Shown: positions 23,128-53,367 of the stretch, piece after piece | Numbering within the stretch: the stretch's first letter is position 1 | Layout: each line of letters begins with the position of its first letter | Source: Bacteroidota bacterium | GTDB taxonomy: Bacteria; Bacteroidota; Ignavibacteria; Palsa-1295 | Reading direction: 5' to 3' | DNA length: 64,000 nucleotides | Assembly (NCBI GenBank): GCA_018266755.1 | Contig: JAFDZW010000005.1 | Span: forward strand, 775,233-839,232 | Program-made: the position numbers and the translations under genes | Notes under the pieces: model-generated | What the model was told of the DNA's origin: nothing | Databases searched by the model: none | What the model saw: the letters and a program-made list of their open reading frames with translations, nothing else

Positions 23128-23257
23128 AGCCGCCTCATTCGGGAGGTGGCTCAGTTTGAAACGGTGTTCGAAGCCATCATTCTGAGCGAAGCGAAGAATC
23201 TCTTCGGCGGAGACTTACTACGTTTCATCGAGGGATTCTTCGCTTCGCTCAGAATGA
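23128..23257. repeat. intergenic hairpin and family A inverted repeat
   Basis: The 360-bp gap between the receptor gene and the divergent oligopeptide-binding gene holds a 9-bp hairpin AGCCGCCTC / GAGGTGGCT at 23128-23151. Next to it is a perfect 24-bp inverted repeat (23177-23200 against 23234-23257) of the TCATTCTGAGCGAAGCGAAG family. Another partial arm follows at about 23268-23278. No gene is seen in this gap. Confidence 0.85.
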
Positions 23258-23398
23258 CAGTGGGTGCTCAGAATGACGATGGGGTGCTCGGAATAACTTC
23301 TTCTTGAACTGTTCACACGGAACCGCTACCGCACTCACCATACGGGAGTGCAAACGGCGGATGTCGGGTTACCAATAGTCTCAAATTCTGTGTATCGA

Positions 23399-30145: not shown

Positions 30146-30252
30146 GTCATTCTGAGCACATTCACTTTGCTCAGTGTAAACTCCGCGAAGAATCCATTGA
30201 TGAAACGCAGTGAGGCTCCGCCAGAGGGATTCTTCGCTTCGCTCAGAATGAC
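30146..30252. repeat. dispersed inverted repeat, family A
   Basis: It starts GTCATTCTGAGC and ends GCTCAGAATGAC, with internal pieces GAAGAATCC and GGATTCTTC; the inner part 'TTGATGAAACGCA' recurs at 31.28 kb. It fills most of the gap upstream of rplU. Confidence 0.8.
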
Positions 30253-31252: not shown

Positions 31253-31347
31253 GTCATTCTGAGCAAAGCGAAGAATCCCTTGATGAAACGCACAGAGGCT
31301 CCGCGAGAGGGATTCTTCGTCGGGCTAAAGCCACTCCTCAGAATGAC
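31253..31347. repeat. dispersed inverted repeat, family A
   Basis: Left arm GTCATTCTGAGCAAAGCGAAGAATCC shape at 31253-31278 and a right arm ending in CTCAGAATGAC at 31347, interrupted by a short GGGCTAAAGCC insert. It ends 24 bp before the tmRNA 3' end. The neighbouring 31153-31195 holds a GGTTGGTGACTGGTG-type low-complexity stretch. Confidence 0.75.
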
Positions 31348-31895: not shown

Positions 31896-31933
31896 CCATT
31901 TCGCGCAGCCGTAGCATACCCACGCCAGTAGGA

Positions 31934-32304
31934 CGGACTCTCAGTCCGTCCCCTTTCGGCAGCCACAAACATTCGGTCCTGCCCCGAACCTCGCCCACGA
32001 ATGAATTCGTGGGCTACGCCTGTGGCCGTCCTGCCGGACTCAATGCGGCGAAGCCGCAATCTCCCGTTACCCCACCCCTCATTCTGAGCGAAGCGAAGAA
32101 TCCCTCTCGCAGAGCCGCAGCACGTCCAAAACCGGTGGCACGGACTCTCAGTCCGTCCCCTTTCGGCAGCCACAAACATTCGGTCCTGCCCAGAACCTCG
32201 CCCACGAATGAATTCGTGGGCTACATCTGTGGCCGTCCTGCCGGACTCAATGCGGCGAAGCCATAATCTCCCTTTACCTCACCCGTCATTCTGAGCGAAG
32301 CGAA
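31934..32304. repeat. two direct repeats of about 164 bp with 207-bp period
   Basis: Copy 1 (31934-32097) and copy 2 (32141-32304) align without gaps at an offset of 207 with few mismatches. Each contains the palindromes GGACT-CTC-AGTCC (extended outward), CCCACGAAT-GA-ATTCGTGGG and a family A arm. No coding frame in this gene-free stretch (31779-32896) looks real; apparent frames are made of the repeat itself. Confidence 0.85.
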
Positions 32305-42888: not shown

Positions 42889-45057
42889 TCAATGTATTAC
42901 AGAGACAGTAGTCGTGGCAGCCGCCCCGCCGGACGAAAGTGTGAGCACATACGTTCCGCTTGAGATCGAGCCGAAATTCAGCTCTTCGACGTGTTGGCCT
43001 TCCGTTTGGAGCCCAAGATCGAACATCGCAACCCGTGTGCCACGCATATCATAGAGCTCGACATACGTCGGAGCACTTTGGCTGAGCGTGTACTGCATCC
43101 GGATCCGGTTCACGGCCGGGTTCGGATAGATGCGCTCGATCTGCAACGTTGATACCGTTGCTGCTGTCGGATTCTTCACGTCGGCTTCCTCGTCCGTATC
43201 GATTCGCAAGATCGTCCCCCGGAAACCGCAAGTCCACCCGGCGTGGGTCGTGCCGAAAGTGACACTGAACAAGTCGGCGGTGGTCAGTGCGCGTTGGGGG
43301 TGCCATGAAGAATCGGGATCGACGGTATGGATGATCATCGCACCATGCCCGACGACCGTGGCATGATAGCCGTCGGCCGTATAGATACCGAGCGGTGCAA
43401 GCGTGGAGTATTCGGTAATATCGGTATATTTCCATGTGTCCCCACCGTCACTGGAATATGCAAGCGCACCGTGCCACTGTTGTTGCAGCGGTGGCACTCC
43501 GAGTCCGCCCAAACCGCCAAGATACAAACGCGATCGAGCAGCCCCAATTCCGATTGTCGAGAATACGTAAGTATCCGGGATATTCAGTTTTTTCCAGGAA
43601 ATCCCGGCGTCGCTTGTGCGGAAGACGCCATTAGGAGAAGTGATAAATCCGTATGACGAATCGAAGAACGCAAGACTTGTAATGCCCACCGTGTCCGGCA
43701 GCGGGCCATGATAGCGAGTCCAATATTGGCCGCCGTCGGTTGAACGCAAGAATAGCGCTGAATCGCCAACGGCATACACAGCATTGCGCGAAGCGAAGCT
43801 GACGGCTCGAAGGTGTCGTGTGGTGTTCGATGGGATGCGCGTCCAGGTTGTTCCGGCATCGGTGGTACCGAAGATGGTCCCGAATTCCCCGACAACGAAG
43901 CCGTTGCCGCGGTCATCGAGTGCCGAACCATAAAACGTACTCGTTGTACCGGTTTGAACCGGAAGCCACGTATGTCCGCTATCGACAGTCGTGAGGATGG
44001 CGCCGTAACTTCCGGCCGCAAAACCGCGACGGCCATCGTTCATCATGCGGATGGTTCGAAGTGCACTTGTCTGCGGTCTGCGCGGGATGAATGTCCAGCT
44101 CGTTCCTCCATCGGTCGTCTTGATCACCACACCATCTTGCCCGACCGCAATACCGGAATATTCCGAAAGCATCGAGACGCGCTTGATGGAAGTCATCGAA
44201 CCGAATTCGCTGCGAGACCACGAACTCCCGCTATTGCTCGAGTACAACAGTTCTCCGTGATCGCCAACGGCGATCATCGGACCGTTTCCCTTCTTATCGA
44301 CGCTGTTGAGAGGTTGTGCTCCGAGCGTGAAGTTCATCGAATCCTCAAACTGCCAACTATGTCCCGCGTCATTCGTGCCGAGGATATAGCGTCCCGGTCC
44401 GCCAACTGCGATGGCGTGACGATCGTCGAGATAATAGACATCGTTGATCGTATTGCCGGAGGGCATCCGAAAGGACTCGAACGTCCGGGCGGAGTCGCGG
44501 CTCGCATAGTACATTCCTCCGTCTCCGACGAACACAATAAGTCCCGGCCTCGGCATGCGAAGACGACGGATTGCACCGAACGACAACTCTTGTGGAAATC
44601 TGTTCCATGTCGATCCACCGTCACGGCTGATCAGCAACGTTCCAGCCGCTGAATTTCCGCCGCAGATCAGCGCCAGTTGGTTATCGACCATGAGGACATC
44701 CAGTAACGGGTCCGTCACTCCCGTAGACAACGTGGCCCAGGTTTTTCCGCCATCGGTCGTTTTATACGCTGTTCCATTCGCACCAACGACCATACCGGTC
44801 AGCGTATCGATAAAACTGACGCCATTAAGCGTGAGTGTGCCGACCTGACGGTTCGTCAGCGTCGTTCCTGCGTCGCTCGTCATGGTAACCAACCCTTTGT
44901 CACCGACCATCACGGCTGTCATCTCCGTGATGGCTTGCACCGAACGGTATGTGCCTGCAAGGTTGGAAGGATTCTGCGTGACCCACGTGTTCAGTTGAGC
45001 ACGAGCAGAATGAAACGCGATGCAACATAAGATCACGATGAGTCTGTGTGTCTTCAT
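42889..45057 (-). CDS. tandem Asp-box T9SS protein, paralogue 1
   Basis: 722 residues from the ATG giving MKTHRLIVIL; signal peptide ends near ARAQ. The mature part starts 'NTWVTQNPSNLAGTYRSVQ' like its three paralogues. It consists of repeated blades with 'VGDKG' and Asp-box motifs (e.g. TTDGGKTW, SRDGGSTW, STDGGQYW, SSDGGDTW), about eleven in all, pointing to a Ycf48/sialidase-type beta-propeller. A linker 'CGFRGTILRIDTDE' precedes the T9SS sorting domain ('ERIYPNPAVNRI...SGTYVLTL'). Expected on the cell surface; binding role unknown. Last and probably oldest or most diverged of the array, judged by its variant promoter. Confidence 0.85.
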   Translation of the reverse strand: MKTHRLIVILCCIAFHSARAQLNTWVTQNPSNLAGTYRSVQAITEMTAVMVGDKGLVTMTSDAGTTLTNRQVGTLTLNGVSFIDTLTGMVVGANGTAYKTTDGGKTWATLSTGVTDPLLDVLMVDNQLALICGGNSAAGTLLISRDGGSTWNRFPQELSFGAIRRLRMPRPGLIVFVGDGGMYYASRDSARTFESFRMPSGNTINDVYYLDDRHAIAVGGPGRYILGTNDAGHSWQFEDSMNFTLGAQPLNSVDKKGNGPMIAVGDHGELLYSSNSGSSWSRSEFGSMTSIKRVSMLSEYSGIAVGQDGVVIKTTDGGTSWTFIPRRPQTSALRTIRMMNDGRRGFAAGSYGAILTTVDSGHTWLPVQTGTTSTFYGSALDDRGNGFVVGEFGTIFGTTDAGTTWTRIPSNTTRHLRAVSFASRNAVYAVGDSALFLRSTDGGQYWTRYHGPLPDTVGITSLAFFDSSYGFITSPNGVFRTSDAGISWKKLNIPDTYVFSTIGIGAARSRLYLGGLGGLGVPPLQQQWHGALAYSSDGGDTWKYTDITEYSTLAPLGIYTADGYHATVVGHGAMIIHTVDPDSSWHPQRALTTADLFSVTFGTTHAGWTCGFRGTILRIDTDEEADVKNPTAATVSTLQIERIYPNPAVNRIRMQYTLSQSAPTYVELYDMRGTRVAMFDLGLQTEGQHVEELNFGSISSGTYVLTLSSGGAAATTTVSVIH
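43133..43230. repeat. 98-bp tract identical to one in the next paralogue
   Basis: Every base of 43133-43230 equals 45399-45496, while the flanks differ at many positions. It encodes the end of the propeller, the RIDTDEEADVKNPT linker and the first residues of the sorting domain. Identity at silent sites points to recent gene conversion. Confidence 0.9.
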
Positions 45058-45092
45058 TTCCGTTGTGGCTGCGAATGCGAACAAGCAGTCAG

Positions 45093-45121
45093 GACAACGT
45101 TTGAGGCCCTCTAAAGATACA
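45093..45121 (-). promoter_or_regulatory. ECF-type promoter of paralogue 1
   Basis: TGTATC (45121-45116), 17 bp, GTTGTC (45098-45093), 59-64 bp before the start codon for the -35 part. One base in the first element differs from the other three copies. A GCTGCCGA / TCGGCAAC hairpin at 45128-45150 lies just upstream, after the stop of paralogue 2. Confidence 0.5.
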
Positions 45122-45154
45122 ACCGTCGCTGCCGAAACGCAATCGGCAACGCCT

Positions 45155-47302
45155 CTAACGTGTCACCACGATCTGTGTCGTTGCGGCTGCATTTCCGGCT
45201 TCCACGACAAGAATGTACGTCCCCGTGCTCAACCCTCCGAGATTGAATTCGCATGCATGCTCGCCGTCGGACTGCAGCCCTTGCATTGAGCTCAACACTC
45301 TGGCACCGAGCAGATCGAAAACTTGTATCGTCGTCGGTGCCTGCTGATCGAGGCGATATAATAGATGAATCCGGTTCACCGCAGGGTTCGGATATACACG
45401 CTCGATCTGCAACGTTGATACCGTTGCTGCTGTCGGATTCTTCACGTCGGCTTCCTCGTCCGTATCGATTCGCAAGATCGTCCCCCGGAAACCGCAGCTC
45501 CAGCCGGCATGGGTTGTGCCGTACGCAATTCCGAAGAGGTCGTTGGATGTCGGGGTTGTCTGCGCAGTCCAGGCACTTGTGGGATCGGTCGTATGCAAGA
45601 TCAGTCCGTTTCGTCCGACCATAGTCGCGTGGTATCCGTCTGCAGTATAGATCGCTTGCGGAGGTTTCGGAGAGACGGTCTGCAGTTCGGTGGCGTTCCA
45701 TGTATCCCCGCCGTCGACTGTATAGGCTACTGCCCCGGTATAATTTCCAAAGCCAATCCCAACGGCATAGGCATGGGTCGGCGATGTTCCGACGGCGATA
45801 CTATTGAATGCAAAATCGGTGGTCGGCATGACAAGCCTCCACGAGATGCCTGCATCCGTTGTCTTGAAGATACCGGCCGGTGATGCGATCATTCCCCTCG
45901 ACGAATCGAAGAATGCAATGCCGTTAATACCGAACGAGTCGGGGAGCGGCCCATGATAACGGGTCCAATATTGTCCGCCGTCGGTCGAGCGAAGGAATAG
46001 TGCAGAGTCGCCGCCGATATAGATTGCATTGCGGCTGGCTTGTGTAATACAACGGAAATGCTTCGTCGTAGCCAGGGGGACCTGTTTCCAGCTCGCTCCG
46101 GCATTCGTCGTTGAAAGCATCGTGCCGAATTCACCGACGATAAACCCACGCCCGTCGGTGTCGAGGATGGATGCGAGCAAATTCTGATTCGTGCCGCTTA
46201 CCGTTGGCAGCCAAGTGTGACCGCTGTCCGAGGTTATCAGGATCGCCCCATTCCCGCCGGCAGCGAAACCGGTCTTGCCGTCCGGCATCATCTTTACCGT
46301 GCGGAACGTCTGGATCTCGGGTTTGCGCGGAATGAACTCCCATGTCGCTCCGCCATCCGTTGTTCTCATCAGGACGCCATCCTGCCCGACGACCATTCCG
46401 AGTTTATCGGAATACATCGAGACACCTTTGATCGAACTGAACGAACCGAAGTAGGAGCGATTCCAACTATTTCCCCCGTCGAATGAGTAGAGTATCTCAC
46501 CGTAGTCACCAACGGCTACCACGCTATTCGGGCTCTTGGAATCAACTCGGTTCAGCGCCGTACCACCGAGCGTAAAGTTGTTGCTGTCGAGCAAATGCCA
46601 ATGTACGCCCTGATCGGGAGACCCGATCATATAACGGCTCGGGCTGCCGACGGCCACAATATGTTGGTCGTCGAGGAAGCACAGGTCGTTGATCGTATTT
46701 TGATACGGGATCTGGAATTGCACGAAGGTATGGGCTGTGTCGTGCGATACGTAGAACGCGCCGTTATCACCGACGAAGACGATGAAATCCGGCCGCAGCA
46801 TACGAAGACCGCGGATAAACCCAAAGCCCAACTCGCCGCCATATTGACTCCACGTCTTGCCGCCGTCGCGCGTAATTCGGAGCAGGCCGTTGCTGGATGT
46901 CCCTCCGCAGATAATCGCGGTATTCTGGTCGACCATCAGCACACCGAACAACTGCTGGGTAATACCGATGTTCAACGTTTTCCAGGTTTGTCCGCCGTCG
47001 GTGGTTTTGTATGCCGCACCATTCGAACCGACCGTCATGCCTGTAAGGCTATCGATAAAATTCACGGCATAGAGGTTCTGAGACCCGATCGATTGATTGA
47101 CGATCGTTGCTCCCGCATCCGTCGAACGCGCAACCGTTCCTTTATCGCCAACCATAAACATCGTCGTCGGCGATACCATCTGGATCGCGCGGTAATACCC
47201 GGCAATATTCGACGGGTTTTGTGTGATCCAGGTATTGATCTGCGCGTCGGCAGATGAATAGATACACAGCGATACAATCAACAGAACGAATGAGCGGATC
47301 AT
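45155..47302 (-). CDS. tandem Asp-box T9SS protein, paralogue 2
   Basis: 715 residues; signal peptide MIRSFVLLIVSLCIYSSADA. Same plan as paralogue 1: 'NTWITQNPSN' opening, propeller with about eleven Asp-box motifs (TTDGGQTW, TRDGGKTW, TTDGGATW, STDGGQYW, TVDGGDTW), the shared 'YWTRYHGPLPD' block, the linker and a T9SS domain ('YPNPAVNRIHLLY...STGTYILVV'). The linker DNA is identical to that of paralogue 1 over 98 bp. 97 bp separate it from paralogue 1. Confidence 0.85.
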   Translation of the reverse strand: MIRSFVLLIVSLCIYSSADAQINTWITQNPSNIAGYYRAIQMVSPTTMFMVGDKGTVARSTDAGATIVNQSIGSQNLYAVNFIDSLTGMTVGSNGAAYKTTDGGQTWKTLNIGITQQLFGVLMVDQNTAIICGGTSSNGLLRITRDGGKTWSQYGGELGFGFIRGLRMLRPDFIVFVGDNGAFYVSHDTAHTFVQFQIPYQNTINDLCFLDDQHIVAVGSPSRYMIGSPDQGVHWHLLDSNNFTLGGTALNRVDSKSPNSVVAVGDYGEILYSFDGGNSWNRSYFGSFSSIKGVSMYSDKLGMVVGQDGVLMRTTDGGATWEFIPRKPEIQTFRTVKMMPDGKTGFAAGGNGAILITSDSGHTWLPTVSGTNQNLLASILDTDGRGFIVGEFGTMLSTTNAGASWKQVPLATTKHFRCITQASRNAIYIGGDSALFLRSTDGGQYWTRYHGPLPDSFGINGIAFFDSSRGMIASPAGIFKTTDAGISWRLVMPTTDFAFNSIAVGTSPTHAYAVGIGFGNYTGAVAYTVDGGDTWNATELQTVSPKPPQAIYTADGYHATMVGRNGLILHTTDPTSAWTAQTTPTSNDLFGIAYGTTHAGWSCGFRGTILRIDTDEEADVKNPTAATVSTLQIERVYPNPAVNRIHLLYRLDQQAPTTIQVFDLLGARVLSSMQGLQSDGEHACEFNLGGLSTGTYILVVEAGNAAATTQIVVTR
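45399..45496. repeat. 98-bp tract identical to one in paralogue 1
   Basis: Partner of 43133-43230; see there. The equivalent region of paralogues 3 and 4 is similar to each other (GTATCGATGCGCAAAATCG) but differs from this one, so exchange seems to occur within pairs 1-2 and 3-4. Confidence 0.9.
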
Positions 47303-47422: not shown

Positions 47423-49579
47423 TCATTTGACAACGACGATCTGTGTGGTTGCGGCAGCGTTGCCAACAGAAAGAAAGAGCAGATACGAGCCGCTGGCAAG
47501 TTCGCCGAGGTTTAATTCGTCGGTATGCTCCCCGTTCGCTCGCATACCGAGCTGCGCGTCCAGCACTCGTACTCCGAGCTGGTCGAACACTTGCACGTTC
47601 GCCTTGCCGGGTTGGTCAAGCTGATACAACAAGCGCACCCGCGATACTGCCGGATTCGGATACACTCGTTCGATCGTGAGATGCGGCATTGCAATGACAT
47701 CGGGATTTCGGACATCCAATCCTTCGTCGGTATCGATGCGCAAAATCGTCCCGCGAATCCCGCAACTCCACCCGGCACGCGTCGAGCCATAGACAATACC
47801 GTACAGATTATTTGTTGTCGGCGCTGATTGCGTAGACCAAGTGACACCGCCATCAACCGAATGATAGATCAATCCATAGTGCCCTACAAAGGTCGCGTGA
47901 ACTCCATCCGGTGTAAAGACATCGGACGGTGGAAACGGACTGCGTTGTAATAATTCTGTACATACCCACGTCTCTCCCCGGTCGGTACTGTAGCCGACAG
48001 CACCGGTGAACTGTCCCCCCGTTGCAAGACCTACACCGATTGCATTCGGCATCATACTACTGGCCGATAATTTCATGAACCCGCACACAATCGGAGAGAG
48101 TACCAAATGCCACGAAATACCTGCATCGGTTGTCTTGAACACACCGAATGGCGAGCACACCAACCCTTGCAGCGAATCAAAGAAGGTCATCCCAGTGATC
48201 GCAAATGAATCCGGCAACGGCCCATGGTAGCGAGTCCAATACGCCCCTCCGTCCGTCGACTTCAGAAACAGTGCCGAGTCACCACCGATATAGAGCGTGT
48301 TCTTGCTTGCCTCGGCGATGCAATGCAATGTCTTCGACGTGGCGAGAGTAACGCGCGACCACGTAACGCCGGCATCGCTAGTCCGCAGCAGCGTGCCGAA
48401 GTCGCCTACGACAAACCCTCGCCCATCCTCATTAAGCACTGCTCCGTTGAGCCCGGTGATGACACCAGTTGCAGAGGGAATCCATGTGTGGCCACTATCG
48501 ACAGTATACAGAATCGTCCCGTAACCTCCGGCGGCGAATCCGCGCTGGCCGTCCGGCATCATCCGGATCGCTCGCAGCGTACGAACTTCCGGCCGACGAG
48601 GGATGAACTCCCACGTCACGCCGCCGTCGGATGTACGCATGATCAGTCCGTCCTGACCAACGGTGATACCATCAAGCGCAGAGTACATCGAAATCGCCTT
48701 CAATCCACCAAGCGATCCGAAGAAGCTTCGTGTCCAGTTCTCACCTCCGTTGGTCGAATAGAGGATCTCACCGTAGTCGCCGACGGTGACCACGTGCGCA
48801 AGATCGTTAGCATCGACACCGTTGAGCTGGGCGGATCCGAGATCGAAGTTCGCACTATCGAGCGCATGCCAATGCGTACCGCCATCGGATGTGCCAAGCA
48901 TATACCGGCCGGGGCTGCCGACAGCCACAATATGCTGCTCGTCGAGGAAACAGACATCATTGAGGTCGTTCTGATATGGCAGAAGATACTTCGTGAACGA
49001 CGCGGCATGGTTTCGCGTAACATAGAGCGACCCGTTCAAACCGACGAGGACAATGAAGTCCGGTCGAAGCATCCGAACCCGTTTGACAATACCGATCCCA
49101 AGTTCGGCAGCAAACAACGTCCACGTCGCTCCTCCATCGCGCGAAATATGAATCGTGCCGCTCTCCGACGTGCCACCGCAGGCGATCGCAAGGCTATCGT
49201 CAACCATCAATACGCTGTGTAGTGGTTCGTTCGATCCGGCACCGATATTCATCGGCAGCCACGTGGCCCCGCCATCGGTGGTCTGAAATGCGACGCCGGC
49301 TTCGCCCACACACATTCCACGGAGCGAATCGAGAAAGCTTACGCCGAGAAGCGACTTGGTCGTGAGCGATTTGCTCAAAAGTGTGTATCCCCCATCGGTG
49401 GAGTACGCGACGGTCCCTACGTCACCGACGGCGAACATGGTCGTCGGTGTCACCATCTGCACCGCGTGATAGACGCCGGCTAAGTTGGAGGGGTTCTGCG
49501 TAACCCACGTATTACGCTGTCCGTGCACGGAGTGCGCAAGACACAGCGATGCGACGAAAATGAGAATTGAGCGAATCAT
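47423..49579 (-). CDS. tandem Asp-box T9SS protein, paralogue 3
   Basis: 718 residues from the ATG giving MIRSILIFVASLCLAHS; the frame continues 23 codons upstream without support. Opening 'NTWVTQNPSNLAGVYHAVQ', about eleven Asp-box motifs (TTDGGATW, SRDGGATW, TSDGGTHW, STNGGENW, SVDGGVTW), 'YWTRYHGPLPD', linker 'CGIRGTILRIDTDE' and T9SS domain ('YPNPAVSRVRLLY...SGSYLLFL'). Closest to paralogue 4 in the opening ('MVTPTTMFAVGDVG') and linker. Confidence 0.85.
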   Translation of the reverse strand: MIRSILIFVASLCLAHSVHGQRNTWVTQNPSNLAGVYHAVQMVTPTTMFAVGDVGTVAYSTDGGYTLLSKSLTTKSLLGVSFLDSLRGMCVGEAGVAFQTTDGGATWLPMNIGAGSNEPLHSVLMVDDSLAIACGGTSESGTIHISRDGGATWTLFAAELGIGIVKRVRMLRPDFIVLVGLNGSLYVTRNHAASFTKYLLPYQNDLNDVCFLDEQHIVAVGSPGRYMLGTSDGGTHWHALDSANFDLGSAQLNGVDANDLAHVVTVGDYGEILYSTNGGENWTRSFFGSLGGLKAISMYSALDGITVGQDGLIMRTSDGGVTWEFIPRRPEVRTLRAIRMMPDGQRGFAAGGYGTILYTVDSGHTWIPSATGVITGLNGAVLNEDGRGFVVGDFGTLLRTSDAGVTWSRVTLATSKTLHCIAEASKNTLYIGGDSALFLKSTDGGAYWTRYHGPLPDSFAITGMTFFDSLQGLVCSPFGVFKTTDAGISWHLVLSPIVCGFMKLSASSMMPNAIGVGLATGGQFTGAVGYSTDRGETWVCTELLQRSPFPPSDVFTPDGVHATFVGHYGLIYHSVDGGVTWSTQSAPTTNNLYGIVYGSTRAGWSCGIRGTILRIDTDEGLDVRNPDVIAMPHLTIERVYPNPAVSRVRLLYQLDQPGKANVQVFDQLGVRVLDAQLGMRANGEHTDELNLGELASGSYLLFLSVGNAAATTQIVVVK

Positions 49580-49613: not shown

Positions 49614-49642
49614 AGAGGCATCTTTTTAAGAACAATGTTACA
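49614..49642 (-). promoter_or_regulatory. ECF-type promoter of paralogue 3
   Basis: TGTAAC (49642-49637), 17 bp, GCCTCT (49619-49614); the first element is 58-63 bp before the ATG. Confidence 0.5.
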
Positions 49643-49681
49643 TCGCATCTATCGACCTCGCCACATAATAGACATACACCG

Positions 49682-51823
49682 TCACCGCACCACAACCAAT
49701 TGAGCAGTAGCTAAAGCCGATTCCGTCGTCAACGTGACGACATATGAACCGGCGGGTAATGCACGCACATCGAGTTCGGAACTGTGCTCCCCTTCGGTAA
49801 GGATACCAAGATCTCTTGAGAGAACCCTCTTCCCCTGGATGTCCATGATTGAAATCGTTGCCGAAGAGCTCTCCGGTGTTGAAATCAACAAGCGAATCCG
49901 GTCGGAAGCAGGGTTTGGATAAATACGCTCGATGTCCACGGTTGGCAGTACGACGTGTGTCGGATTGCGCACATCGGCCTGCTCGTCGGTATCGATGCGC
50001 AAAATCGTCCCGCGAATTCCGCAACTCCACCCGGCATGCGTCGAGCCGAAGCCGACACCGAAGAGGCTGTTCGATGTAAGTGTCGTCTGAAGCGACCACA
50101 CTCCATCCGGGCTGCTGACATGCGTGATCTGACCGTAGCGACCAACGGCGGTCGCATGGTAACCATCGGCAGTATAAATTGCATACGCCCGGCTCACGAC
50201 GCTCCCAGAGATCGCTATTCCCCATGTGTCGCCACCATCAGTAGTATGCGCATAAAACGAACCGTCAAACGAGGTACCAAGCGCAAATGCATTTGTCGGT
50301 GAACTACCAATCGCGACTGCAATCCACGCGGCAGGTAATCCGGTAGAAATGACCTGCTTCCAGGTAATTCCTGCATCGTCAGTCTTCCACATTCCGTCGG
50401 GCGAGCCAACAACCCCTCGCAACGAATCGAAAAAATTCAGCGAAGTGACTCCGAACGAATCGGGCAACGGCCCATGATACCGTGTCCAATACTCTCCTCC
50501 ATCTATCGATTTCAAGAACAATGCTGAGTCACCGCCGATATAGAGCGTATTGCGGCTCGCCTCTGCGATGCACGTCAATCGTCTACTTGTACTGAGCTTG
50601 ACCGTAGCCCATGTTGCGCCTGCATCGGTCGTCCGAAGCAGCGTCCCCATTTCGCCGACGATATAGCCCCGACCGTCGGCATTGAGAACTGCCGCGAGCA
50701 GCCCTGCAATAGTACCCGACTCGACCGGATTCCATGTGTGACCGCTATCCCGTGTAAACAAGATCGACCCGTAGCCCCCTGCGGCAAAGCCGGTACTTCC
50801 GTCCGGCATCATTCTCACCGTTCGAAGTGTACGGATCTCCGGTCGGCGCGGAAGGAACTCCCAACTCGCTCCTCCATCGGTCGTTCTCATAATCACTCCA
50901 TCCTGACCGACCACCAACCCACTCGTTGCCGAGTACATCGACACACCTTTGAGCGATGTCAGCGCACCGAAGTCACTTCGATTCCATGTGTCGCCTCCAT
51001 CGCTCGAGTACAAGAGCTCGCCGAAATCGCCGACGGCAACCACTGCATGCGGATCTTTCGAGTCCACCCCATTCAACTGGGCAGCGCCCAATGTGAAGTT
51101 ATTCGTATCGAGCGCCCGCCAATGGGCTCCTTGGTCCGATGAGCCGACCAAATAGCGGCTCGGACCGCCAACAGCAACGACATGCAATTCGTCGAGGAAG
51201 CAGACGTCGTTGAGATCGTTTTGGTATGGCAGTTGATATTGAAGGAAGGTCCGCGCGGAGTCCCGGGAAACGTAGTACGTCCCGTTCGCGCCGACGAAGA
51301 CGATAAAATCCGGGCGAAGCATTCGGATGTTTTTGATCGCGCCAACGCCTAACTCGCCTGAATACGGTTTCCAGGTAGCTCCTCCGTCGCGAGTGATGCG
51401 AAGGCTGCTAAAACTGCTCGCCCCGCCGCACACTAATGCCAAGTTGTGATCGACCATCAAGACCCCATAGAGCTGTTCGCTCCCGCCGATGTTCATTGGC
51501 AGCCACGTATTCCCCCCGTCGGTCGTCTTGAATGCATTGCCTTCTTCGCCGACGACCATCCCGGTGAGCGAGTCGGCGAAATTTACTCCGTAGAACGACT
51601 TTCGCATGATCGACCTGTTCTCCAGCGTTACCCCGCCATCTAACGATCGGGCGATGATCCCGACGTCACCGACGGCGAACATCGTCGTCGGCGTCACCAT
51701 TTGCACCGCACGATAGACTCCCGCAAGATTCGGAGGGTTCTGTGTGACCCAGGTATTGAGTTGGGCGTGCGCGACATGCGCTGCCACCAGCAGGATGAAG
51801 GATAGAATGAGTGTGTGTCTCAC
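49682..51823 (-). CDS. tandem Asp-box T9SS protein, paralogue 4
   Basis: 713 residues from a GTG start; signal peptide MRHTLILSFILLVAAHVAHA. 'NTWVTQNPPNLAGVYRAVQ', about eleven Asp-box motifs (TTDGGNTW, TRDGGATW, SSDGGDTW, TTDGGASW, TTDGGDTW), 'YWTRYHGPLPD', linker 'CGIRGTILRIDTDE' and T9SS domain ('YPNPASDRIRLLI...AGSYVVTL'). It is the first gene of the array in transcription order; 102 bp separate it from paralogue 3. Confidence 0.85.
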   Translation of the reverse strand: MRHTLILSFILLVAAHVAHAQLNTWVTQNPPNLAGVYRAVQMVTPTTMFAVGDVGIIARSLDGGVTLENRSIMRKSFYGVNFADSLTGMVVGEEGNAFKTTDGGNTWLPMNIGGSEQLYGVLMVDHNLALVCGGASSFSSLRITRDGGATWKPYSGELGVGAIKNIRMLRPDFIVFVGANGTYYVSRDSARTFLQYQLPYQNDLNDVCFLDELHVVAVGGPSRYLVGSSDQGAHWRALDTNNFTLGAAQLNGVDSKDPHAVVAVGDFGELLYSSDGGDTWNRSDFGALTSLKGVSMYSATSGLVVGQDGVIMRTTDGGASWEFLPRRPEIRTLRTVRMMPDGSTGFAAGGYGSILFTRDSGHTWNPVESGTIAGLLAAVLNADGRGYIVGEMGTLLRTTDAGATWATVKLSTSRRLTCIAEASRNTLYIGGDSALFLKSIDGGEYWTRYHGPLPDSFGVTSLNFFDSLRGVVGSPDGMWKTDDAGITWKQVISTGLPAAWIAVAIGSSPTNAFALGTSFDGSFYAHTTDGGDTWGIAISGSVVSRAYAIYTADGYHATAVGRYGQITHVSSPDGVWSLQTTLTSNSLFGVGFGSTHAGWSCGIRGTILRIDTDEQADVRNPTHVVLPTVDIERIYPNPASDRIRLLISTPESSSATISIMDIQGKRVLSRDLGILTEGEHSSELDVRALPAGSYVVTLTTESALATAQLVVVR

Positions 51824-52044: not shown

Positions 52045-53367
52045 ATGCTCAGATCCTGCATTGTGATGATCGCCTTGTTGTTCGTGGTCGGGTCGTCCGC
52101 CGCTCAGCAAAAGGTCGAGGTCATCGATATCATCGGCGAAGTCGATCCCGCAATGTCGAACTATGTTGACCGTTGCGTCAACGAAGCACAGGAACAGCAT
52201 GCTGTGATCCTGCTGCGAGTCAATACATTCGGCGGCAGACTCGATGTTGCAACGCACATCCGCGATGCAATAATCAACGCGAAGGTCCCCGCAACGATCG
52301 CCTTTATCGACAAACGTGCAATTTCGGCCGGTGCGCTTATCACGCTTTCCGCACAGAAGATTTATATGTCGCCGGGCTCCACGTTCGGCGCGGCAACCCC
52401 GATCCACGAGACGGGTGAAAAGGCTTCGGAAAAAGTTGTTAGTTATATGCGCGCCGAAATGCGCACGACAGCCGAACTGCACCACCGCAACCCCAACGTC
52501 GCTGCCGCCATGGTCGACGAACAACTGGGCCTCGACAGTGCATCGGGCATCTCCCTGGCAAAAGGCAGCTTACTGACACTGACCAACGAGAGCGCACGCA
52601 AATCAGGGTATATCGACGGCGAAGTGAATACGCTCAACGAGGCTCTTACTACCGCAGGATATTCGAATGTGGTAGTCACAGAAGCATCGCAGACGCTCTC
52701 TGACGAAGTGATCCGCTTCCTGACACTGCCAATGGTCAGCAGTATCCTTATCCTCATCGGGCTTGTAGGTATTTTCTATACGATCAAGACGGGTCATGTC
52801 GGGATGATTACCCTGACGTCGATCGCGGCGCTCATCCTGTTCTTTACCGCCCAGTATGTGACCCAGATCGCACCGATCATGGCGTTGGTGCTTTTTCTCG
52901 TCGGTATTTTTCTTTTCCTTATCGAACTCACACCAATCCCCTCGTTTGGCGTAGCGGCAGTGCTTGGTTTGACCGGCGTATTCCTCGGCTTATTCCTTGC
53001 CCTTGCCGGCGATCTGCGTGCGCTGACACCCGAGCGGATCCGAACGACATCGGAGGTGCTTGCCGGCGCGTTGCTTGGCTTCATTGTCGCAATGTTCATC
53101 ATAATAAGGTATGCGCCGGGTTGGGGATTGATGCGGAAGTTTGTCCATCAAGTTTCGTCATCGTCGACGACAGCGATCAGCTCTGGTCGTAACGACCTTC
53201 TCGGACGATTCGGATTGGCGATCACACCGCTTCGGCCAAGCGGTACCGCAATGATCGACGGGAAGCATGTGGATGTCGTGACGACCGGCGAATTCGTGCC
53301 GGCAGGTTCGTCCGTCGAAGTAGTGCAGATCGCTGCCAGCAAGATTGTCGTTCGAACACGAGAGTAA
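52045..53367 (+). CDS. NfeD-family membrane serine protease
   Basis: 440 residues. Signal peptide (1-20), a ClpP-class domain with 'VILLRVNTFGGRLDVATHIRDAI' and the nucleophile region 'AISAGALITLSAQKIYMSPGSTFGAATPI', then four or five transmembrane helices (about 230-355) and a C-terminal OB-fold NfeD domain ('GLAITPLRPSGTAMIDGKHVDVVTTGEFV'). Long-form NfeD proteins usually pair with a stomatin (SPFH) gene; here the next gene, 5 nt away, is an ABC permease instead. Confidence 0.9.
   Translation: MLRSCIVMIALLFVVGSSAAQQKVEVIDIIGEVDPAMSNYVDRCVNEAQEQHAVILLRVNTFGGRLDVATHIRDAIINAKVPATIAFIDKRAISAGALITLSAQKIYMSPGSTFGAATPIHETGEKASEKVVSYMRAEMRTTAELHHRNPNVAAAMVDEQLGLDSASGISLAKGSLLTLTNESARKSGYIDGEVNTLNEALTTAGYSNVVVTEASQTLSDEVIRFLTLPMVSSILILIGLVGIFYTIKTGHVGMITLTSIAALILFFTAQYVTQIAPIMALVLFLVGIFLFLIELTPIPSFGVAAVLGLTGVFLGLFLALAGDLRALTPERIRTTSEVLAGALLGFIVAMFIIIRYAPGWGLMRKFVHQVSSSSTTAISSGRNDLLGRFGLAITPLRPSGTAMIDGKHVDVVTTGEFVPAGSSVEVVQIAASKIVVRTRE

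Follow-up and report, generated by a model that had tools for sequence, protein, structure and literature searches.

Probable gene conversion at the joint of protein body and export tag in two tandem T9SS cargo genes

The tuf genes of bacteria are nearly identical to each other. Conversion between tufA and tufB is processive and intrachromosomal, and the cited part of the tuf study gives it a fitted walk of ~1000 nt (PMC5485169). The locus described here is similar in that two paralogous genes of one chromosome appear to have exchanged sequence, but the exchange covers 98 nt and the genes are highly diverged. In Mycobacterium tuberculosis, the ESX/PE/PPE genes provide a second precedent. Short non-reciprocal tracts pass there between paralogues for exported proteins, as we propose for our locus; the portion of the work drawn on here reports a median tract of 101 bp and fewer conversion events as divergence rises (PMC13061034). 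A phylogeny of 151 isolates served to date those events, which involved highly homologous paralogues, whereas here we deal with one genome and a pair of genes only 59.6% identical. Thus the length of our tract is ordinary; it is the divergence of the pair that is unusual.

Two other systems are alike in the kind of gene involved. Kgp, RgpA and HagA of Porphyromonas gingivalis are, like the proteins studied here, T9SS cargo with signals in the C-terminal domain (CTD), and they carry rearranged domain modules. Gene conversion by homologous recombination has been proposed for these gingipain/haemagglutinin rearrangements (PMC5266723, in the sections cited). They concern whole adhesin domains and were compared between strains, whereas ours is a linker tract of 98 bases on a single chromosome and belongs to an Asp-box propeller family. 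The Giant1-5 genes of Apilactobacillus kunkeei are consecutive surface-protein genes with recombination hot spots and homogenisation (PMC12863079, as excerpted). The tracts there are long (> 1 kb examined) and pass between strains, in contrast to the short tract between paralogues in our case. In sum, gene conversion itself is already known, and what distinguishes the present example is its landing site, the joint between a protein body and its export tag.

The window, by which we mean the whole stretch of 64,000 nucleotides that was analysed, holds four tandem paralogues, P1 to P4, all on the minus strand (Table 1). The P1 reading frame begins at TTG, and an ATG follows 9 codons further in. 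Profile searches assign each of the four proteins to the YCF48/PSII_BNR and Asp-box propeller families. All four also end in a sorting domain, seen both as Por_Secre_tail (PF18962; 33.4–47.4 bits, Pfam cut-off 27) and as TIGR04183 (37.3–42.9 bits, cut-off 23). A C-terminal domain scoring above the curated cut-off is one mark of T9SS type A cargo, and P1–P4 all have it. Their N-termini are visibly hydrophobic in the translations, and export of the four proteins is predicted.

Table 1. The array, its neighbours and the shared stretches, in window positions (a position on contig C5 minus 775232 gives the window position)
Feature	Position	Strand	Remarks
NlpC/P60 gene	41711-42658	minus	borders P1-P4 array on one side
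P1	42889..45084	minus	YCF48/Asp-box propeller + T9SS type A sorting domain
P1 Por_Secre_tail (PF18962)	42910..43131 (C5:818142-818363)	minus	adjoins 3' end of tract
Tract copy 1	43133..43230	minus	in P1, gene nt 1855-1952, residues 619-651: CGFRGTILRIDTDEEADVKNPTAATVSTLQIER
P2	45155..47302	minus	paralogue of P1, same architecture
P2 Por_Secre_tail	45164..45397 (C5:820396-820629)	minus	adjoins 3' end of tract
Tract copy 2	45399..45496	minus	in P2, gene nt 1807-1904, residues 603-635
P3	47423..49648	minus	paralogue, architecture as P1
P3 Por_Secre_tail	47432..47665 (C5:822664-822897)	minus	
Shorter P3/P4 stretch, P3 side	47724..47777	minus	35 + 18 identical bases, one mismatch
P4	49682..51823	minus	paralogue, architecture as P1
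P4 Por_Secre_tail	49691..49924 (C5:824923-825156)	minus	
Shorter P3/P4 stretch, P4 side	49983..50036	minus	same last-blade motif
NfeD-like gene	52045-53367	plus	borders P1-P4 array on other side

The profile of P1–P4 also matches solved Ycf48 chains, the best being 5ojr_A (E = 3.1e-20 over 155 positions), but the proteins differ from Ycf48/HCF136 in being longer and in carrying the T9SS tail. Against the YCF48 equivalog profile (NF010237) the four score 135.1–139.7 bits, with a cut-off of 326. Since these scores lie far under the cut-off, P1–P4 are best classed, on profile evidence, as members of the YCF48 fold family and not as YCF48 orthologues. Asp-box propellers are common across bacteria (PMC2716378, in the passage cited). 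A search of a genome-contig collection found 0 close relatives of P2 and likewise 0 of P4, which matched one distant Lentimicrobiaceae locus; phage records held no match to P2. The number of genes in the array is lineage-specific: a genome of the same genus (G001) has three, Q1–Q3.

Over 2145 aligned bases P1 and P2 have 59.6% DNA identity; their proteins are 56.5% identical. Within this diverged background the two copies of the tract are equal at 98 of 98 bases, silent sites included, and cannot be extended by even one base on either side. The flanks fall at once to 54% and 60% identity, which makes both boundaries sharp, and outside the tract every run shared by the two genes is < 18 bases. 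The identity and the differing flanks are therefore as first described. In the 3.55 Mb genome, a whole-genome search finds two copies of the tract, both in P1/P2. Alignment columns 1908–2006 are free of gaps in P1–P4, so the tract lies inside homologous sequence and is not an insertion. The copies form in-frame direct repeats 2266 bases apart. As both are in the same codon phase and start at codon base 1, recombination from one to the other would leave the reading frame intact.

The position of the tract with respect to the protein domains is also precise. By both Pfam and NCBIfam the sorting domain begins right after it, at residue 652 in P1 and 636 in P2. A structure model of P2, built from the four window proteins, has the last propeller strand at residues 609–613, a linker (pLDDT < 50) at 614–629 and a first CTD strand that begins at 631 (mean pLDDT 74.8; the pTM of 0.49 makes domain placement in the model weak). 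As modelled, the tract would take in the last propeller strand, the disordered linker and the opening codons of the CTD. The original prediction had put it in the linker ahead of the sorting domain; the domain coordinates and the model bear this out, and add the end of the propeller.

In-frame mobile palindromic elements go by the name of RPE. The tract contains a small hairpin, GCAACG...CGTTGC, and an RPE-like element was considered and rejected: P3 and P4 align without a gap, and there are only two genomic copies. Because the hairpin is restricted in the window to the two tract copies, the window has no dispersed hairpin element.

The check proposed at the outset, a four-gene alignment with a gene-conversion test, was carried out as a GENECONV-like permutation over 1326 polymorphic sites with 10,000 shuffles. 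The longest run of matching polymorphic sites in P1/P2 numbers 45 sites; the null runs averaged 6.6 and never exceeded 14. A stricter null held the amino-acid alignment fixed and redistributed codon matches within residue type only, again with 10,000 shuffles. The P1/P2 run is here 98 bases and the null maximum 53, so that the observed value was reached in 0/10,000. The codon counts agree: codons for the same residue are identical in 32/32 cases within the tract vs 140/352 outside. When only codons silent in all four genes were used, the P1/P2 run was 10 (P = 0.003) and the P1/P3 run was 8 (P = 0.0036); since the two pairs score similarly, this test alone would not single out P1/P2.

The gene tree points the same way. 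The maximum-likelihood protein tree is P1,(P2,(P3,P4)), with supports of 99/96 and 99/98, and the G001 genes form a clade of their own. The tree thus puts P1 outside P2–P4, and the equality of P1 and P2 in the tract conflicts with it.

Conservation in relatives is confined to one half of the tract. Its first 42 bases encode a motif of the last propeller blade, CGxRGTILR...DE, which is conserved in all of P1–P4 and, at the protein level, in the genus. It is recognisable in G002, G005 and G006. The linker that follows is without conservation in Q1–Q3 and the other relatives compared. In the Q1–Q3 array a significant tract was found in 0/3 pairs; the longest run, 27 bases in Q2/Q3 (P = 0.28), is at the same last-blade motif. 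The original prediction held that equal conservation in distant species would speak for constraint; G001 has no tract and keeps the protein motif alone, so conversion stands. An ancient constraint at the DNA level is rejected on the same ground, the same-genus array of three genes having no such tract.

P3 and P4 share a shorter stretch (Table 1), with P = 0.0034 by the polymorphic-site permutation and 0.0045 by the protein-conditioned null (35 nt), both uncorrected for six pairs. In the conserved-motif half of the tract the two genes agree at 40/42 bases, and in the linker half at 28/56. Compared with P1/P2 in the linker half, P4 agrees at 35/56 and P3 at 24/56, so P4 is nearer there to P1/P2 than to P3. 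The claim that P3 and P4 share another version of the region is therefore true of the first half only.

High local identity that includes silent sites, sharp edges, conflict with the gene tree and lack of conservation across species are marks of gene conversion, and all of these are found here. Both permutation tests, the codon counts and the tree conflict support conversion between P1 and P2, as had been suggested. Further support comes from the comparable but weaker run that P3 and P4 have at the last-blade motif, and from 45 identical bases at that motif in the neighbouring genes C and D of a class-level relative (G041; see below). Judged from sequence, a recent, non-reciprocal and intragenomic conversion is very probably the best explanation of the tract. 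The reading rests on one event in one genome.

A wider reading is that the tract is one case of a genome-wide overwriting of the 3' ends of cargo genes, linked or unlinked. It is a setting for the P1/P2 conversion and not an alternative to it, and we regard it as possible but doubtful. The array itself argues against it. From the end of the tract to the stop codon, pairs among P1–P4 agree at 111–143/241 bases, no better than the propellers do, and this goes against the proposal that exchange keeps the export end uniform. The sorting domains rank among the regions in which P1–P4 differ most. For the same residue, the CTD codons of P1/P2 are identical in 15/39 cases vs 89/170 upstream; the values are 12/34 for P3/P4 and 9/32 for P2/P4, no higher than upstream. 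The CTDs of P1 and P2 are thus not homogenised, and the tract ends where the CTD starts.

The evidence in favour comes from T9SS tails elsewhere in the genome. A PF18962 search of the genome, with 228 candidates at first look, gave 150 listed matches. All 150 listed CTDs were compared in register, each with as much as 900 bases of upstream and 200 of downstream sequence. Beyond whole-gene paralogues, three sets of unlinked genes among these matches share CTD DNA while their bodies have diverged. The first set has five genes (contig and position: C5:893608, C5:958152, C5:1369848, C7:97971 and C7:199386) whose CTD DNA is ~78–89% identical. For several pairs the similarity sets in no more than a few bases from where the CTD starts; for several it continues for tens of bases beyond the stop codon. 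Upstream protein identity in this set is mostly 33–48%, except that C5:893608 and C7:199386 are alike well upstream. The second set consists of three propeller genes (C10:440, C11:452 and C1:493633), two of them cut by contig starts, with CTD DNA at 77–90% and upstream protein at 50–53% identity. In the third, C2:152834 matches C10:19385 at 92% over CTD bases 69–241, with no upstream similarity by BLASTP, and matches C6:41879 at 82% over bases -14 to 95. By these alignments the CTD of C2:152834 appears to be a mosaic, its first part like C6:41879 and its last part like C10:19385. Since unlinked T9SS genes of the same genome share CTD DNA, over upstream regions that are diverged or unrelated, exchange is not limited to the linker and to adjacent pairs, contrary to what had been supposed.

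The share of identical codons is higher in the CTD than upstream in 12/14 such pairs (Fisher P < 0.05; e.g., 48/68 vs 18/74), a count to be taken as description rather than test, because the 14 pairs were picked by CTD similarity, share genes and so are not independent. The exceptions are C5:958152/C7:97971 (45/67 in the CTD vs 70/119 upstream) and C5:893608/C7:97971 (36/61 vs 27/61).

Two family members in other genomes have no tail at all. At L039 8948–10891 (G002) and L041 7518–9446 (G006) the gene of this family has its stop codon immediately behind the last-blade motif (...RITTNE) and lacks both linker and sorting domain. The genes end at the very place of the tract. These are sister sequences, and so the two early stops count as one event, which is a hint at where the module boundaries lie.

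We also compared the 30 best-scoring CTDs in each of three other genomes (G041, G003 and G027), one G003 CTD being dropped for length. Pairs with at least 90 CTD bases at 80% identity or more, and with at most 100 bases of upstream match, numbered 1/435, 0/406 and 0/435, respectively, which weighs against a general process. The G041 pair consists of tandem T9SS propeller genes, C and D, at locus L045 (10377–14690) of a class-level relative. Their propellers have ~40% DNA identity, and then come 45 identical bases at the last-blade motif, GGTILRTTTGGVTWVE. Past this run the identity is 0.69–0.82 over the linker and most of the CTD. A CTD stretch of 44 bases is common to genes D and B as well, so the tail of D, which otherwise resembles that of C, is a mosaic.

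An array screen of relatives covered 26 loci and 37 same-strand pairs with > 30% amino-acid identity among those listed. P was < 0.05 in 3/37 of the listed pairs (two in G041, one in G027), where ~2 are expected by chance; in all three the shared run falls within the last ~100 residues. With 10,000 shuffles the observed run was reached 0 times for C and D of G041, 21 times for B and D, and 140 times for the G027 pair. At the sampling used, two genomes of the class show tail exchange among the CTD pairs and two others do not.

We entertain only tentatively the idea that in this bacterium T9SS export tails are a recombining module. The DNA of the joint and the CTD, sometimes with the 3' flank, may have been copied repeatedly between tandem and distant cargo genes, so that bodies diverge while tails become homogenised or mosaic. 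The 98-base tract would then be the cleanest recent event, seeded by the last-blade motif. The matter is of some consequence, as the cargo genes that share one type of tail can number well above a hundred in a T9SS bacterium (150 listed matches in this genome). If tails move as DNA modules, ordinary recombination could give export to a new body or take it from an old one, and phylogenies inferred from tails would be misleading. In searches of the open-licence literature we recognised no paper on exchange of T9SS tails among cargo genes within one genome, which is a weak sign of novelty. In PMC5808330 the term gene conversion occurs in the reference list only.

Purifying selection could in principle produce a similar picture, the identity being kept by a constraint on the protein or on the DNA (an overlapping frame, an RNA structure or a binding site). 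The motif encoded by the first 42 bases is indeed kept in P1–P4 and, at the protein level, by the Q1–Q3 array and by two further genera of the family, but the linker half is conserved neither in P3 and P4 (24/56 and 35/56) nor in Q1–Q3, and the null conditioned on the protein was never attained in its 10,000 shuffles. The RNA fold of the tract copies is ordinary (z = -0.32 and -1.36). In P2 and P4, alternative frames on the same strand exceed a synonymous-shuffle null in length, and there is a weak match between the translations of these frames; however, such likeness is expected from the common main frame, and the P values (0.014 each, the two smallest of 20 tests) fail across the 20. Purifying selection is thus refuted in the main, and we give it very little credence.

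The alternative-frame ORFs are long in themselves. They lie on the minus strand at 45111–45701 (3' end of P2) and 49638–50225 (3' end of P4), and are 38% alike over 103 residues. An overlapping reading frame in P2/P4 was considered and set aside as most likely a by-product of the common main frame.

That the identity arose in assembly or polishing is highly improbable. The source is an assembled genome in 11 contigs with one run of N elsewhere in the genome, but the window is without N, and each copy has unique flanks, ~40% divergent, on both sides. By reasoning, a de Bruijn tangle may misjoin copies but does not make divergent sequence identical, and where one direct repeat encloses a single segment the parts can be ordered in one way only. 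Tandem genes whose number varies with lineage (four here, three in the same-genus genome) might suggest unequal crossing over, or a partial duplication of recent date. Either is scarcely credible, since one crossover would produce a single edge, with identity going on to the gene end on the other side, whereas identity drops to ~54–60% on both sides of the tract.

To return to gene conversion between P1 and P2, the likely course of events can be outlined. About 98 bases would have been copied non-reciprocally between the adjacent genes by ordinary homologous recombination, presumably with RecA-type strand invasion. The exchange may have started in the protein-conserved last-blade motif, CGxRGTILRIDTDE, and then extended through the otherwise variable linker as far as the start of the sorting domain. 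In some tandem paralogues of the propeller family the longest common run falls at this motif. Given that P1 and P2 are very diverged, and that events in M. tuberculosis are fewer at higher divergence, the motif seed would have to have been unusually similar beforehand. The case suggests that conversion is possible between genes only ~60% identical, probably given a short conserved anchor. From the resulting in-frame repeat, as a prediction, one gene unit could at a later time be deleted or duplicated, and tails would be exchanged in the process. Swapping of propellers through the 98-base repeats is in this sense a possible, predicted consequence.

Other repeats occur in the window apart from the array. 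A 25-base motif, GTCATTCTGAGCGAAGCGAAGAATC, is found at 23176–23258, 30228–30252, 31253–31277 and 32078–32102. The genome has 108 exact copies (58 forward and 50 reverse; the reversed control gave 0). The copies often form inverted pairs at a distance of 58 bases, in the manner of a REP-like dispersed repeat. A direct repeat of 173 bases, with a spacing of 207 bases and 94% identity, occupies 31925–32304, and related copies are present near C5:951827–952033.
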